A DNA stretch of 64,000 bases from Isoptericola sp. AK164 (lineage in GTDB: Bacteria; Actinomycetota; Actinomycetes; Actinomycetales; Cellulomonadaceae), in the NCBI RefSeq assembly GCF_029643425.1, contig NZ_CP119106.1:1240001-1304000 (forward strand), read 5' to 3'. A program made the position numbers and the translations under genes. Below, one piece after another: positions 19,439 through 24,696 of this stretch (its first letter is position 1; each line of letters opens with the position of its first letter). The notes beneath the pieces are model-generated. The model ran no database searches, was not told the origin of the DNA, and was given only the letters and a program-made list of their open reading frames with translations.

Positions 19439-21613
19439 GTGAGCCTTGACGACCAGACATCGGCCGTGCCCGACGACGGTGCGCCCACCGAGCTGCGTGA
19501 GCTGGCGGCGGCGCACGGTGTGCTCACCGAGTACCACCGGTTCGGAGGGGGGATCGCGCACGTCTCCGACGCCACCCTCGTCGCCGTCCTGACCGCCCTC
19601 GGCGTGGCGGCGACGACCCGGCAGGAGGTCTCCCAGAGTCTGCGCCGCGCACGGGACGACGAGTGGCGCACCGTCCTGCCACCGACCGTGGTCGCCCGCC
19701 AGGGCGACGCCCGTGACCTGCCGGTCCACGTCAGCGACGGAGCGTCCGTGCACGTGTGGGTGGAGCTGGACGGCGCCGAGCCCGAGGCACGTCCGCACGA
19801 GCTCCGCCGTCGTCGCGACCTGGAGCAGCGCGACGTGTTCGTCACGCCGCGGGAGGTCGACGGCCGCACGGTCGGGCGCGCGACCTTCGCCGTGCCGGAC
19901 GACCTGCCGCTGGGCTGGCACACCCTGCACGCGCTGACCGAGGGCCAGGAGTGGTCGACCACCCTCGTGGTCACCCCGGCGCGTCTCGAGCTGGGCGACG
20001 ACATCGAGCGCGACCAGGTCTGGGGGGTCCTCGCCCAGCTGTACTCCGTCCGCTCGCGGACGTCGTGGGGCATGGGGGACCTGGCGGACCTGGCCGACCT
20101 CGCCTGGCTGACGGCCCACCAGGCCGGTGCCGACTTCGTGGCGGTGAACCCGCTGTCCGCGGCCGAGCCCACCGTGCCGATGACGCCGTCGCCGTACCTG
20201 CCCACGTCGCGGCGTTTCGGCAACCCGATCTACGTCCGGGTCGAGGACATCCTCGAGACGGCCTACCTCTCCGCCGCGGACCGGTCGCTCGTCGAGTGGG
20301 CCGCCGACCCGGTGCGCGACCTGGACACGGACGCCGGGGCGCTGGACCGGGACGCGGTCTGGGAGGCGAAGAAGGCCGCGCTGGAGGTCGTCCACACCGC
20401 GCCGCGTCGCGCCGCCCGGCAGGCGGCCTACGAGGCCTTCGTCGAGTCCCAGGGGCAGGGCCTGCAGGACTTCGCGACCTGGTGCGCCCTCACCGAGGAG
20501 CTGGGCGGCGCGCCCAGGCCCGACGAGCTGCGCGACCCCTGGTCGCCGGCCGTGGCCGCCGCGCGCGAGCGGCTGGCCGAACGCGTCGACTTCTACTGCT
20601 GGTTGCAGTGGGTCTTCGACGAGCAGAAGCACGCCGCCCAGCGCACCGCCCTCGAGGCCGGCATGCGGGTCGGCATCATGCACGACCTCGCCGTGGGGGT
20701 GCACCCCGCCGGCGCCGACGTGTGGGCCCTGGGCGACGTGCTGGCGCACGGGGTCGGCGTCGGCGCCCCGCCCGACATGTACAACCAGCAGGGGCAGAAC
20801 TGGTCCCAGCCGCCGTGGAACCCGCGCACGCTCGCGCGCGCCGGCTACGGGCCGTACCGGGACATGCTGCGCACCGCGCTGCGGCACGCCGGCGCGCTGC
20901 GCGTCGACCACATCCTCGGCCTCTTCCGGCTGTTCTGGGTCCCGGACGGCATGCGCCCCACCGAGGGCACCTACGTGCGCTACGACCACGACGCGCTCAT
21001 CGGGATCCTGTGCCTGGAGGCCCAGCGCGCCGGTGCCGTCGTCATCGGCGAGGACCTCGGTGTCTTCGAGCCCTGGGTCCGCGACTACCTCGCCTCGCGC
21101 GGCGTGCTCGGCACGTCGGTCTTCTGGTTCGAGAAGTCCGACGGGCGGCCCCTGCCTCCCGAGGACTACCGGCACCTGACCTTCGCCACGGTGGGCACCC
21201 ACGACATGCCGCCGACGGCCGGCTACCTCGCCGGCGAGCACGTGGACCTGCGTGAACGGCTCGGGCTGCTCACCGAGGACGCCCAGGTGCTGCGGGCGCA
21301 GGCCCGCGCGGAGCGGGACGGCGCCGTGCTGGCCCTGTCCGAGAGGGGACTGGTCGGCGACTCGCCCTCGGAGCGCGAGGTGGTCGAGGGGCTGCACCGT
21401 TACCTGCGGCGCTCTCGGGCCGCTCTCGTCGGCGTCCAGCTCGTCGACGCGGTGGGGGAGCGGCGCTCGCAGAACCAGCCCGGCACCGACACCGAGTACC
21501 CGAACTGGAAGGTGCCGCTGGGCGACTCCGCGGGCAACATCGTCCTGGTCGAGGACCTGTTCGACAACGCGCGGCTGCGGTCGCTCTTCGCAGCCGTCGC
21601 CTCCGCCCGCTGA
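19439..21613 (+). CDS. malQ: 4-alpha-glucanotransferase (amylomaltase)
   Basis: This 724-residue GH77 enzyme transfers maltodextrin chains between acceptors in glycogen and maltose metabolism. The N-terminal 160 residues are the actinobacterial extra beta domains. The (beta/alpha)8 barrel follows, with the nucleophile Asp in LRVDHILGLFRLFWVP (about residue 487), the acid/base Glu in VIGEDLGVFEPWV (about 537) and the stabilising Asp in VGTHDMPPTAGYL (about 588). The active-site loop is NQQGQNWSQPPWNP. GTG start at 19439. It is monocistronic and ends at the 20-nt repeat array. Confidence 0.95.
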   Translation: MSLDDQTSAVPDDGAPTELRELAAAHGVLTEYHRFGGGIAHVSDATLVAVLTALGVAATTRQEVSQSLRRARDDEWRTVLPPTVVARQGDARDLPVHVSDGASVHVWVELDGAEPEARPHELRRRRDLEQRDVFVTPREVDGRTVGRATFAVPDDLPLGWHTLHALTEGQEWSTTLVVTPARLELGDDIERDQVWGVLAQLYSVRSRTSWGMGDLADLADLAWLTAHQAGADFVAVNPLSAAEPTVPMTPSPYLPTSRRFGNPIYVRVEDILETAYLSAADRSLVEWAADPVRDLDTDAGALDRDAVWEAKKAALEVVHTAPRRAARQAAYEAFVESQGQGLQDFATWCALTEELGGAPRPDELRDPWSPAVAAARERLAERVDFYCWLQWVFDEQKHAAQRTALEAGMRVGIMHDLAVGVHPAGADVWALGDVLAHGVGVGAPPDMYNQQGQNWSQPPWNPRTLARAGYGPYRDMLRTALRHAGALRVDHILGLFRLFWVPDGMRPTEGTYVRYDHDALIGILCLEAQRAGAVVIGEDLGVFEPWVRDYLASRGVLGTSVFWFEKSDGRPLPPEDYRHLTFATVGTHDMPPTAGYLAGEHVDLRERLGLLTEDAQVLRAQARAERDGAVLALSERGLVGDSPSEREVVEGLHRYLRRSRAALVGVQLVDAVGERRSQNQPGTDTEYPNWKVPLGDSAGNIVLVEDLFDNARLRSLFAAVASAR

Positions 21614-21648
21614 CGGCGCCGCGCGCTGACGCCGGGTCCAGCCCGCCG

Positions 21649-21897
21649 CGAGGTAGGCAACCCTCCGCCGAGGTAGGCAACCCTCCGTCGAGGTAGGCGA
21701 GTGTTGCGCGAGGTAGGCGAGAAAACGGCGAGGTAGGCAGATCCCCGGCGAGGTAGCACAGATCGCGTGCTACCTCGCCGGAAAGTTGCCTACCTCGCCG
21801 GAAGGTTGCCTACCCGGCCCGGAAGTTGCCTACCTGGCCCGGAAGTTGCCTACCTGGCCCGGAAGTTGCCTACCTGGCCGGGAATCTGCCTACCTCG
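21649..21897. repeat. Inverted array of 20-nt repeats with central hairpin
   Basis: Five direct units of exactly 20 nt beginning CGAGGTAGGC (21649-21748) lead into a central palindrome, GAGGTAGCAC...GTGCTACCTC (21750-21776). Six units of exactly 20 nt in the opposite orientation follow, such as CCCGGAAGTTGCCTACCTGG, repeated almost identically three times (21778-21897). The invariant part of each unit is GAGGTAGGC or its complement GCCTACCTC, while the other half varies. The array fills the whole space between convergent malQ and pepN and could fold into a very long hairpin or cruciform. The 20-nt unit shifts frame, so it is not coding. Confidence 0.92.
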
Positions 21898-21916
21898 CCG
21901 GGGCGGGCGGAGGAGC

Positions 21917-24487
21917 TCAGGCGGCGTCGACGGCCTGCGCCGCCAGCGCACGCTCGGTGCCGGCCAGCCCCTCGACCACCATGCGGCGCAGCGCCGCCGG
22001 GGCCTCGGGGTGTGCCTCGAGCCAGCCGCGCACCGTGTCCCGCAGCTCGACCGAGGCCAGCGGCGCCGGGTAGAGGCCCTCCACGAGCTCCTCGGCGATG
22101 TGGTAGCTGCGGTTCTCCCAGATCGGCAGCAGCGCGTCGACGTACCGCTGCGCGAACGGCTCGAGCACGCTGGGGTCGGTCACGTGCACGAACCCGGAGG
22201 CCGTGGCGCGGATGATCGCGTTCGGCGCGTCGGAGTCGTCCACGACCGAGGCGAACGCGCGCTCCTTGCCCGCGACCGACGGTGTGGTCGCCCGGGCACG
22301 GGCCGCCGCCTGGCGCCCGGTCGCCGTGTCGTCGGCCGCCTGCGCGGCGTCGATCTCGGAGGCGTCGGCCTCGCCGAGCAGCACCAGGCCCTGCAGCAGC
22401 TCCCAGCGCAGGTCGGTGTCGACGGTCAGGCCCTCGAGTGTGACCGACCCGTCGAGCAGGCCCCGCAGCGGGGCGACGTGGTCGGCGGTCGAGGCCAGCG
22501 CCGAGAAGTACTTCACGAGCTGCAGCTGCAGGTCGGAACCGGGGGCGGCGTCCTGGGCGAGCGTCCACAGCGTGTCGCCGACGCGCTGCAGCGTCTCGGC
22601 GCGCCGCGCCGGAGCCACGTAGGTCCGCGTGGCCAGCCCGAGCTGGGCCAGCGTGGTGCGCACCGTCGTCGACTCGGTCTCCGCGGCGATGTTGCCCAGC
22701 ACCAGGTCGACGTAGGACGACGCCGGGGTCTCGCCGTCGCGCACGGCGTCCCACACCGAGCTCCACACCAGGGAGCGGGCGAGCGGGTCCGCGATCCGCG
22801 AGAGGTTCTCGACGGCGAACGTCAGCGACGCCTCGTCCAGGCGGACCTTGGCGTAGGCGAGGTCGTCGTCGTTGATCAGCACGAGCGCGGGCCGGTCGAG
22901 CTCGATGAGCTCGGGGACCTCGGTCCGCTCGCCGTCGACGTCCACCTGGACGGACCGCGTGCGCACCACGTCGCCGGAGGTGTCGAAGTCGTAAAACCCG
23001 ATGCCGAGCCGGTGCGGACGGATCGTCGGGTAGTCCTCGTGCGCCGTCTGCTCGATGACGAACGCCGTGGTGCGGCCGTGGGAGTCCAGCTCGATCGCGG
23101 GGCGCAGCGTGTTGACGCCGGCGGTCTCCAGCCAGGCCTGCGACCAGGCGGACAGGTCGCGCCCGCTGGTGGCCTCGAGCTCGACCAGCAGGTCGCGCAG
23201 CTCGGTGTTGCCCCAGGCGTGCTTGCGGAAGTAGGCGGAGACGCCCGCGACGAACTCGTCACGACCCACCCAGGCCACGAGCTGCTTGAGCACCGAGGCG
23301 CCCTTGGCGTAGGTGATGCCGTCGAAGTTGACCTGGACGTCCTCCAGGTCGTTGATCGGCGCGACGATCGGGTGCGTGGAGGGGAGCTGGTCCTGGCGGT
23401 AGGCCCAGGTCTTCTCCATGGCGTTGAACGTCGTCCAGGCCGCCTTCCACTCGGTGGCCTCGGCCGTGGCGAGGGTGGAGACGTACTCGGCGAACGACTC
23501 GTTCAGCCACAGGTCGTTCCACCACTTCATCGTCACCAGGTCGCCGAACCACATGTGCGCCAGCTCGTGCAGGATCGTCACGACGCGGCGCTCGCGGATG
23601 GCGTCGGTGACCTGGGAGCGGAAGACGTAGGACTCGGTGAAGGTGACGCAGCCCGGGTTCTCCATCGCGCCCATGTTGTACTCGGGCACGAAGAGCTGGT
23701 CGTACTTGTCGAACGGGTACGGGACGTCGAACGTCGACTCGTAGAACCCAAAGCCCTGGCGCGTGGTCTCCATGATCGCGTCGGCGTCCAGGTGCTCGGA
23801 GAGCGAGGCGCGGCAGTACACGCCCAGCGGGATCACGCGGCCGTCCGACGAGGTGACCTCCCCGCGCTCGACGGCGTACGGCCCGGCGACGAGCGCCACG
23901 AGGTAGGTGGAGATGCGCGGGGTCGGCCCGAACTCCCAGCGGGCGGCCTCGACGTCGCCGTCGCTCGCGTGGGTGGCGGGCGTGGGCTCCGGCGTCGGCT
24001 GGTTGGCCACGACGTGCCACCGCGCGGGCGCGGTCACCGACAGCTGGAACGGCGCCTTGAGGTCGGGCTGCTCGAAGGTGGCGAAGACCCGGCGGGCGTC
24101 GGGCACCTCGAACTGGGTGTAGAGGTAGACCTCGTCGTCGACCGGGTCGACGAACCGGTGCAGCCCCTCGCCGGTGTTCATGTAGGCGCAGTCGGCCACG
24201 ACGCGCACCTCGTTGTCCGCGGCGAGGTCGTCCAGGGCGATCCGCGAGTCCGAGAACACCGTGCCGACGTCGAGCGATCGGCCGTTGAGCACGATCTCGT
24301 GCACGCGCGGGGCGACGAGGTCGAGGAACGTGCTCGCGCCCTCGGTCGCCGAGAACCGGATGACGGTGGTCGACGCGAACACCTCGGGCCCGGTGGTCAG
24401 GTCGAGGTCGATCGCGTAGGACTCGACGGCGGTGACGACGTCGGCGCGTGCGATCGCCTCGGCGCGGGTCAGGTTCTCTCCGGGCAC
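21917..24487 (-). CDS. pepN: Aminopeptidase N (M1 family)
   Basis: This 856-residue cytosolic zinc metallopeptidase removes N-terminal residues from peptides. The substrate N-terminus motif GAMEN is at about residue 270 (YNMGAMENPG). The zinc site is HELAH (about 305) with the third ligand Glu in LNESFAEY (about 328), and the M1 Tyr lies farther on. The C-terminal ERAP1-like helical domain is present. GTG at 24487 follows GAGGGAG by 5 nt and gives PGENLTRAEAIAR, the standard N-terminus. It is convergent with malQ. Confidence 0.96.
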   Translation of the reverse strand: MPGENLTRAEAIARADVVTAVESYAIDLDLTTGPEVFASTTVIRFSATEGASTFLDLVAPRVHEIVLNGRSLDVGTVFSDSRIALDDLAADNEVRVVADCAYMNTGEGLHRFVDPVDDEVYLYTQFEVPDARRVFATFEQPDLKAPFQLSVTAPARWHVVANQPTPEPTPATHASDGDVEAARWEFGPTPRISTYLVALVAGPYAVERGEVTSSDGRVIPLGVYCRASLSEHLDADAIMETTRQGFGFYESTFDVPYPFDKYDQLFVPEYNMGAMENPGCVTFTESYVFRSQVTDAIRERRVVTILHELAHMWFGDLVTMKWWNDLWLNESFAEYVSTLATAEATEWKAAWTTFNAMEKTWAYRQDQLPSTHPIVAPINDLEDVQVNFDGITYAKGASVLKQLVAWVGRDEFVAGVSAYFRKHAWGNTELRDLLVELEATSGRDLSAWSQAWLETAGVNTLRPAIELDSHGRTTAFVIEQTAHEDYPTIRPHRLGIGFYDFDTSGDVVRTRSVQVDVDGERTEVPELIELDRPALVLINDDDLAYAKVRLDEASLTFAVENLSRIADPLARSLVWSSVWDAVRDGETPASSYVDLVLGNIAAETESTTVRTTLAQLGLATRTYVAPARRAETLQRVGDTLWTLAQDAAPGSDLQLQLVKYFSALASTADHVAPLRGLLDGSVTLEGLTVDTDLRWELLQGLVLLGEADASEIDAAQAADDTATGRQAAARARATTPSVAGKERAFASVVDDSDAPNAIIRATASGFVHVTDPSVLEPFAQRYVDALLPIWENRSYHIAEELVEGLYPAPLASVELRDTVRGWLEAHPEAPAALRRMVVEGLAGTERALAAQAVDAA

Positions 24488-24696
24488 GGGTACTCCCTCG
24501 GACGGTTGTCGTGGCGGCGTGCCGCGAGGTCGTCGCGACACGCCGCCGATCATGCCACCTGAACCGCGCGCGGCCGAACGGATTCGTCCCGTTCGCCGGG
24601 CCTGGGGCGGCGAGGTTCGACCATCGACACACGATCGTGACATCCTGCTCGGTGCATGTGACGCGTCGGTACCGCCCGGCGCGGGAGGGAGACTCG

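Follow-up and report, generated by a model that had tools for sequence, protein, structure and literature searches.

Phased gene-end repeat arrays in Isoptericola with species-specific cores and, at two sites, an enclosed nuclease-like gene

RESULTS

An inverted array between malQ and pepN

The window, by which we mean the whole 64,000-nt stretch of DNA analyzed, covers positions 1,240,001 to 1,304,000 of contig NZ_CP119106.1 of Isoptericola sp. AK164, whose genome (3.58 Mb, one contig) is G000 in our comparisons. Within it, malQ and pepN are convergent, with the 3' end of malQ facing the forward arm and that of pepN the reverse arm of an inverted array of 20-nt repeats (Table 1). The gene identities given in the original prediction agree with profile matches above cut-off, and the inverted array that it described is real, having been both read directly and recovered by mechanical repeat finding. 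In its details, the array is larger and less uniform than first reported. Forward CGAGGTAG cores start at 21649, 21669, 21689, 21709, 21729, and 21749, and reverse CTACC cores start at 21770, 21790, 21810, 21830, 21850, 21870, and 21890; all 13 share one exact 20-nt grid, where eleven units (five plus six) had been counted. The core had also been called invariant. Exact GAGGTAGGC is found in 5 of the 6 forward and 2 of the 7 reverse units (7/13 overall), the reverse arm being spelled CTACCTCG three times, CTACCTGG three times, and CTACCCGG once, and only GGTAG/CTACC is common to all units. Three nearly identical copies are present as described, and so is the palindromic hinge, whose stem pairs 21745-21759 with 21767-21781 and is drawn from the innermost forward and reverse units. 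The array (21649-21898) occupies about 82% of the intergenic space at 21614-21916, which it had been said to fill entirely.

Table 1. Features of the malQ-pepN region, in window coordinates
Feature	Position	Strand	Basis
malQ (4-alpha-glucanotransferase)	19439..21613	+	ORF; TIGR00217, E 1.2e-89, above cut-off
Forward arm, six CGAGGTAG cores, exact 20-nt spacing	21649..21756	+	Direct reading and mechanical repeat finding
Hinge hairpin, 15-bp stem, 7-nt loop	21745..21781		Direct reading
Reverse arm, seven cores, exact 20-nt spacing	21770..21897	-	Direct reading and mechanical repeat finding
pepN (aminopeptidase N)	21917..24643	-	ORF; TIGR02412, 1050.9 bits, above cut-off

Predicted folds of the window array are very stable on both strands (z -12.6 and -13.7). 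No T-tract terminator was detected at 21450-22050, and the hinge hairpin has no T-run on either strand. Against Rfam, no family scored above gathering; the 11 matches, ten to microRNA models and one to a Bradyrhizobiaceae sRNA, all fell far below it.

The last forward unit (21749-21759) reads CGAGGTAG followed by CAC, not GC. In G000, 10 of 59 last units have this ending, compared with 0 of 199 other units; the unit that bears it is the one farthest from the gene, and the ending is present also in single arms that have no partner.

A genome-wide family with a conserved core

The malQ-pepN array is one of dozens at gene ends in the window's genome, where the pattern GAGGTAGGC-N11-GAGGTAGGC occurs 161 times (90 forward, 71 reverse) and the control pattern 0 times. 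We examined the G000 arrays among the matches listed up to 2.967 Mb, with comparison stretches from G017, G008, and G010, those of G008 and G010 having been drawn from listed four-unit matches and being biased to long arrays. Over 235 units in 57 arms of G000, positions 0-9 (CGAGGTAGGC) are 93-100% conserved, with the qualification that positions 0-3, 6, and 7 served for detection. The AAC that follows CGAGGTAGGC is 69-79% conserved, and the remainder of the unit is variable. The 10-mer itself is almost confined to arrays: the 285 kb of DNA fetched contained 212 copies in or near them and 5 isolated ones. Spacers within an arm of G000 have 56% identity, 16% of pairs being identical, and those at different loci have 45% identity. 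Identical spacers between loci are few, slightly above expectation (26 of 18,099 pairs versus about 5 in a column-shuffled null).

Phased binding sites and a structured RNA or cruciform had both been put forward for this layout. The former gains from a core common across loci, a fixed period of 20-22 nt, and species dialects, all of which are consistent with putative binding sites. The latter does not hold for the array as a whole. Complementarity of opposing spacers in G000 is 5.69 of 10 in innermost pairs (3/16 perfect), 4.20-5.12 in other opposing pairs, and 4.60 between loci, so that opposing spacers are at background, bar a few innermost pairs, and a long selected hairpin or cruciform was rejected. 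Nor do units have any excess of self-folding, the G000 mean of -3.56 kcal/mol lying 0.52 above that of mononucleotide shuffles. What does seem to matter is the hinge hairpin itself.

A plasmid or phage origin was likewise set aside, as blastn of one array (L009) gave no match in either collection. In G008, loci L154 and L159, which are beside different genes, share a whole array with its hairpin (84% over 348 nt), and four further loci (L189-L192) look alike by eye; the likeness may reflect dispersal of complete arrays.

A separate dispersed element, a 112-nt palindrome, was observed at L154:2796-2907, L140, L134, L147, L151, and G000 C1:1096208-1096319, among other places. Its outer stem covaries (16 of 37 pairs changed on both sides) and its inner block is almost invariant. 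It has 26 matches in the window's genome and is present in 18 of 81 family genomes (E 1e-4), and the one copy searched matched no Rfam family. By eye, 12 of 13 exact copies of its block lie in or beside arrays. We rejected it as a second part of the array system because it is present also in array-less genomes.

Arrays lie at the 3' ends of genes

Genes for the context counts came from our own GC-frame caller, which gave malQ identical to the ORF call and a later start for pepN. By this measure, the 110 array-bearing intergenic regions of four genomes comprise 51 convergent, 57 same-direction, and 2 divergent regions, both divergent ones in G010. Among regions of at least 60 nt in the same fetched DNA, arrays are present in 50 of 75 convergent, 56 of 181 same-direction, and 2 of 59 divergent regions (divergent 2/59 versus others 106/256, Fisher p 7e-10). 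That such arrays might recur elsewhere in the genome and in relatives, and at other convergent gene pairs in particular, had been raised with the original prediction; they do recur, at gene ends, and convergent pairs are enriched for them. Ten genes that follow arrays were scanned and are ordinary (ThiC, superoxide dismutase, PhoX, trehalase-like, NUDIX, and others), one being without a Pfam match.

In the GTAG genomes (G000, G017, and G008), the core usually has the orientation of the gene before it: adjacent arm pairs are oriented >< in 35 cases and <> in 0, and single arms in same-direction regions are sense in 22 cases and antisense in 5. Sense polarity of arms is not universal across dialects, as G010, which has the CGAGTCAG core, displays no clear polarity (>< 5, <> 4; single arms 9 sense, 5 antisense). 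A separate plain hairpin accompanies some sense arms, before the arm in 19 cases, after it in 20, and on both sides in 3, with none in 95 of 137. With plain hairpins split almost evenly between the two sides of the arm, transcription of the unit is not a requirement.

TAG occurs within GTAG and ATAG cores. For 22 of 102 sense arms in the GTAG genomes, the preceding gene uses the TAG of the first core as its stop codon, with examples at L009, L015, L016, L033, and others. Stop codons in all frames were rejected as the function of the units, because CGAGTCAG read forward contains no stop and units 21 nt apart all fall in one frame.

Core dialects among relatives

Arrays of this kind also lie at gene 3' ends in related genomes of the Isoptericola group, where the core is particular to the species and units repeat every 20-22 nt. 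When CGAGNNAG was required three times over at 20-nt spacing as a general pattern, 24 of 150 family genomes matched, G000 among them, and the own genus gave the strongest result; one other genome, G124, had 119 matches but also 22 control matches. At 21-23 nt, the pattern was matched in 24 of 150 family genomes, mainly in one other genus with CGAGGTAGAGCC.TGGTCGCG, and also in two genomes of the own genus, G005 and G011. Of 296 genomes sampled across the phylum, 13 besides the own had 1-4 matches, about the control level. In another genus (G162, G131; L169-L188), we noted 21-nt arrays in which the whole unit is conserved, and 5 of 24 regions are divergent by our gene caller, a less strict placement.

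Pairs of CGAGTCAG number 255 in G013, 201 in G010, and 60 in G002 and are absent from the 15 other genus genomes, and the GTAGGC pair pattern occurs in G000 and G017 only, among 58 genomes. G002 is the nearest of the 17 genus relatives of G000 (PepN 93%), and alongside its CGAGTCAG pairs, it has zero of the window's pattern. In the PepN tree, G002 is sister to G000 (support 100/99), G017 comes next, and G010 and G013 form a separate clade; it follows that close relatives have seen at least one change of the prevailing core. A genome need not keep strictly to a single dialect. In G004, the arms at pepN are CGAGATAG (about 22 nt), but all its matches listed are CGAGGTAG at 20 nt, and the pepN arms of G006 are ATAG, yet its one match listed elsewhere is CGAGGTAG.

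Array positions at orthologous gene ends outlast dialects. By reciprocal best hits, 10 of 24 array genes in G008, 5 of 31 in G010, and 9 of 27 in G017 are orthologous to one of 44 G000 array genes, for a chance expectation of about 0.3-0.4 over an assumed 3,300 genes. In the fetched DNA, reciprocal pairs without an array in the partner number 5 of 14 for G017, 4 of 9 for G010, and 0 of 10 for G008, and array-less genes whose partner has an array number 5 of 43 (G017 to G000), 2 of 20 (G010), and 1 of 26 (G008). The occurrence of different dialects at orthologous positions requires either in-place conversion or strong site preference.

Hairpin exchange at the pepN site

We looked up pepN in all 18 genus genomes irrespective of arrays. 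At least two phased same-strand cores follow it in 12 of them, as GTAG-type arrays in G000, G017, G001, G016, G007, and G015, TCAG arrays in G002 and G013, and ATAG arrays in G004, G005, G006, and G011. Each of the 6 genomes without a pepN array has one plain stem of 15-23 bp instead. Array cores supply the only strong hairpin (at least 12 bp) at 6 of the 12 array-bearing sites; five others have a separate plain hairpin, and one (G004) is without a strong hairpin. This swap of an array hairpin for a plain one supports a terminator role for the hinge, in that the innermost inverted pair can serve as a two-way terminator hairpin at which transcription would end. In a set of 80 named pepN loci, of which 3 were dropped and 77 scored, phased cores follow pepN in 8, versus 7 of 1205 control windows.

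A nuclease-like gene between inverted arms

In the ATAG genomes, the pepN array is adjoined not by malQ but by a gene for a protein of 306-324 aa. A profile search of the fetched DNA, most of which was chosen near arrays or pepN so that homologs elsewhere would be missed, found close homologs in 8 genomes, in all 8 between inverted arms (>>>gene<<<), and these cases represent two sites only. One is pepN >>> gene <<< malQ, with ATAG cores, in G004 (where the gene is split over two frames), G005, G006, G011, I. variabilis, and Puerhibacterium. The second, in G000 (L010) and G008 (L162), has GTAG arms and is flanked by a different convergent gene pair. Where DNA had been selected without regard to arrays (the window, the 80 named pepN loci, the six 20-kb stretches L235-L240, and L247), homologs were present at 5 named pepN loci, all enclosed, and at L240 (G017). 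The L240 gene (14001-15071) is a distant AbiEi-like/MTES_1575 paralog (E 1e-11) with no array within 600 nt. In the stretches covered, which for the CGAGTCAG dialect came from G010 and G013, the enclosed gene was not found in CGAGTCAG genomes or G017. Nine further genes located between arms or next to one are unremarkable. Because the same site holds the AbiEi-like gene elsewhere, the window array reads like a gene-less form.

The PADLOC AbiEi model, which has no stated cut-off, matched the enclosed proteins at L010 (1.7e-11) and L162 (8.2e-16). Pfam MTES_1575 matched L162 at 8.1e-7, below the Pfam cut-off, L010 had no Pfam match, and NCBIfam gave none of 3. The proteins share an EFDG..KY motif (EFDGDVKY in G000), which we take to be typical of REase-like folds. 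Weak but consistent, these similarities suggest an AbiEi-like N-terminal part and a REase-like C-terminal part of the MTES_1575/DUF559 type. An AlphaFold2 model from 4 sequences was too poor for use (pLDDT 43.7), and no solved relative turned up by sequence (best E 0.072). Y1 transposase (PF01797) was detected in 0 of 18 genus genomes, with matches in 5 of 14 control genomes. No title or abstract among the open-access papers listed describes these arrays or the enclosed gene, which is no proof of absence.

DISCUSSION

We tentatively read the arrays as a REPIN/RAYT-like family of gene-end repeats with a nuclease-like partner instead of a Y1 transposase, an account that we hold to be possible rather than probable. 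The window array would be the gene-less form of a dispersed gene-end element of Isoptericola and near relatives, built of arms of phased 20-22-bp units, often two inverted, around a center that is either a hairpin or the AbiEi-like gene with its putative REase-like C-terminal part. The units would be binding sites of the encoded protein, and co-evolution of protein and core could have produced the dialects. The protein might cut or process DNA at arrays and so cause them to multiply, spread, and be homogenized, in a manner similar to that proposed for RAYT transposases and REPIN/REP. Gene 3' ends would retain arrays because an array does no harm at such a position, and the innermost inverted pairs may act as two-way terminators, as the exchange of hairpins at pepN suggests. 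Against this reading stand the dialect mismatch between the pepN arms of G004 and its arrays listed elsewhere, the enclosed gene not being found in the CGAGTCAG genome and G017 stretches and having a two-site sample, the choice of most fetched DNA near arrays or pepN, the MTES_1575 match below the Pfam cut-off, the few identical spacers between loci (26/18,099, null about 5), and the need for in-place conversion or strong site preference where dialects differ at orthologous positions. Doubtful in our view is the bolder claim that this is a repeat system propagating itself without a transposase, with AbiEi-like/REase-like proteins recognizing arrays, building and spreading them, and dragging the cores along upon a change of specificity, to yield complete dialect switches in sister species.

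The phased units might also be lined by a DNA-bound protein, AbiEi-like repressor-type or other, that stops readthrough polymerase at gene ends in the manner of TTF-I on Sal boxes, with nothing moving. The location of arrays at gene ends and their near absence from divergent regions argue for such a boundary, as do the polarity of the GTAG genomes (22 sense to 5 antisense single arms; >< 35, <> 0), a period near two helical turns, and the position of plain hairpins relative to the arm. The CGAGTCAG genome G010, which has no clear polarity, fits poorly, and both the gene between arms and the whole-array copies in G008 would be left unexplained; we consider this account unlikely. That ordinary terminator hairpins were enlarged by tandem duplication of a stem half, with no trans factor, seems improbable. 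The very stable folds on both strands, the array cores that are the only strong hairpin at 6/12 pepN array sites, and the often identical within-arm spacers (16% of G000 pairs) speak for such growth, but it predicts locus-specific cores, and those of G000 are 93-100% uniform over 57 arms. Moreover, the sister genome differs in its whole set of cores, and opposing spacers are not complementary.

Equally hard to credit is an element acting at the RNA level, in which repeats in 3' untranslated regions would be sites for an RNA-binding protein or an RNA duplex that protects or processes mRNA ends. Such a role would suit the GTAG-dialect arms, which follow close after the stop codon in the sense direction and in 22/102 cases share its TAG. 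It is at odds with the plain hairpin that lies between stop codon and arm in 22 of the 42 sense arms having one, with the loss of polarity in G010, with a near-helical period, which would not be expected, and with the lack of any Rfam match above threshold. A self-recognition signal for transformation, comparable to the DNA uptake sequences (DUS) of Neisseriaceae with their biased uptake via a pilin receptor, is very improbable. In the available sections of PMC3630211, DUS are a short core with dialects among related species around a common inner core and inverted pairs at terminators, as here, but they occur in thousands of copies, many inside genes. Copies of CGAGGTAGGC, in contrast, stand in arrays with few isolated (212 versus 5 in 285 kb), and identity with DUS was rejected on these counts.

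If, as in our preferred REPIN/RAYT-like reading, the arrays have the nuclease-like protein as their partner, then REP-type repeats would have arisen with a second, unrelated enzyme type, and in actinobacteria, which go unmentioned in the available part of a REP survey (PMC3733652). The nuclease-like gene held between the two halves of the array at this site in six relatives suggests a partnership of repeat and enzyme that is little known. The switch of core between sister genomes (PepN 93%; GTAGGC versus TCAG pairs) renders co-evolution of motif and protein directly testable. For annotators, the arrays offer a gene-end marker and candidate two-way terminators of unusual build.

Among known repeats, the TAACTGA direct repeats of Beggiatoaceae, as far as the consulted part of PMC4679880 describes them, are a dispersed short tandem motif of unknown factor, with heptamers that lie mostly next to start codons. 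The present units, unlike these, are 20 nt long and lie at gene ends. Oriented repeated sites downstream of genes are also a feature of the TTF-I, or Sal box, arrays of rDNA, which the present arrays resemble in this respect; unlike those, they are bacterial, are spread over dozens of loci, enclose a nuclease-like gene, and have a factor that is putative. REP and REPIN elements are portrayed, in the sections available of PMC3116915 and PMC3733652, as dispersed extragenic repeats that are species specific and located at gene 3' ends and between convergent genes, forming hairpins by inverted pairing and flanking a partner gene, RAYT. Our unit, unlike theirs, is not palindromic and forms direct head-to-tail arrays with a 20-22-nt period, and the enclosed gene is AbiEi-like/REase-like; with no Y1 transposase in the 18 genus genomes and units that are not palindromic, we rejected membership among REP elements with RAYT. 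What the two have in common is a dispersed, species-specific sequence, an extragenic location mostly 3' of genes (108 of 110 array regions convergent or same-direction), a layout of repeat, hairpin, and repeat, and a repeat-flanked gene (8/8 genomes with a close homolog), here of another family.
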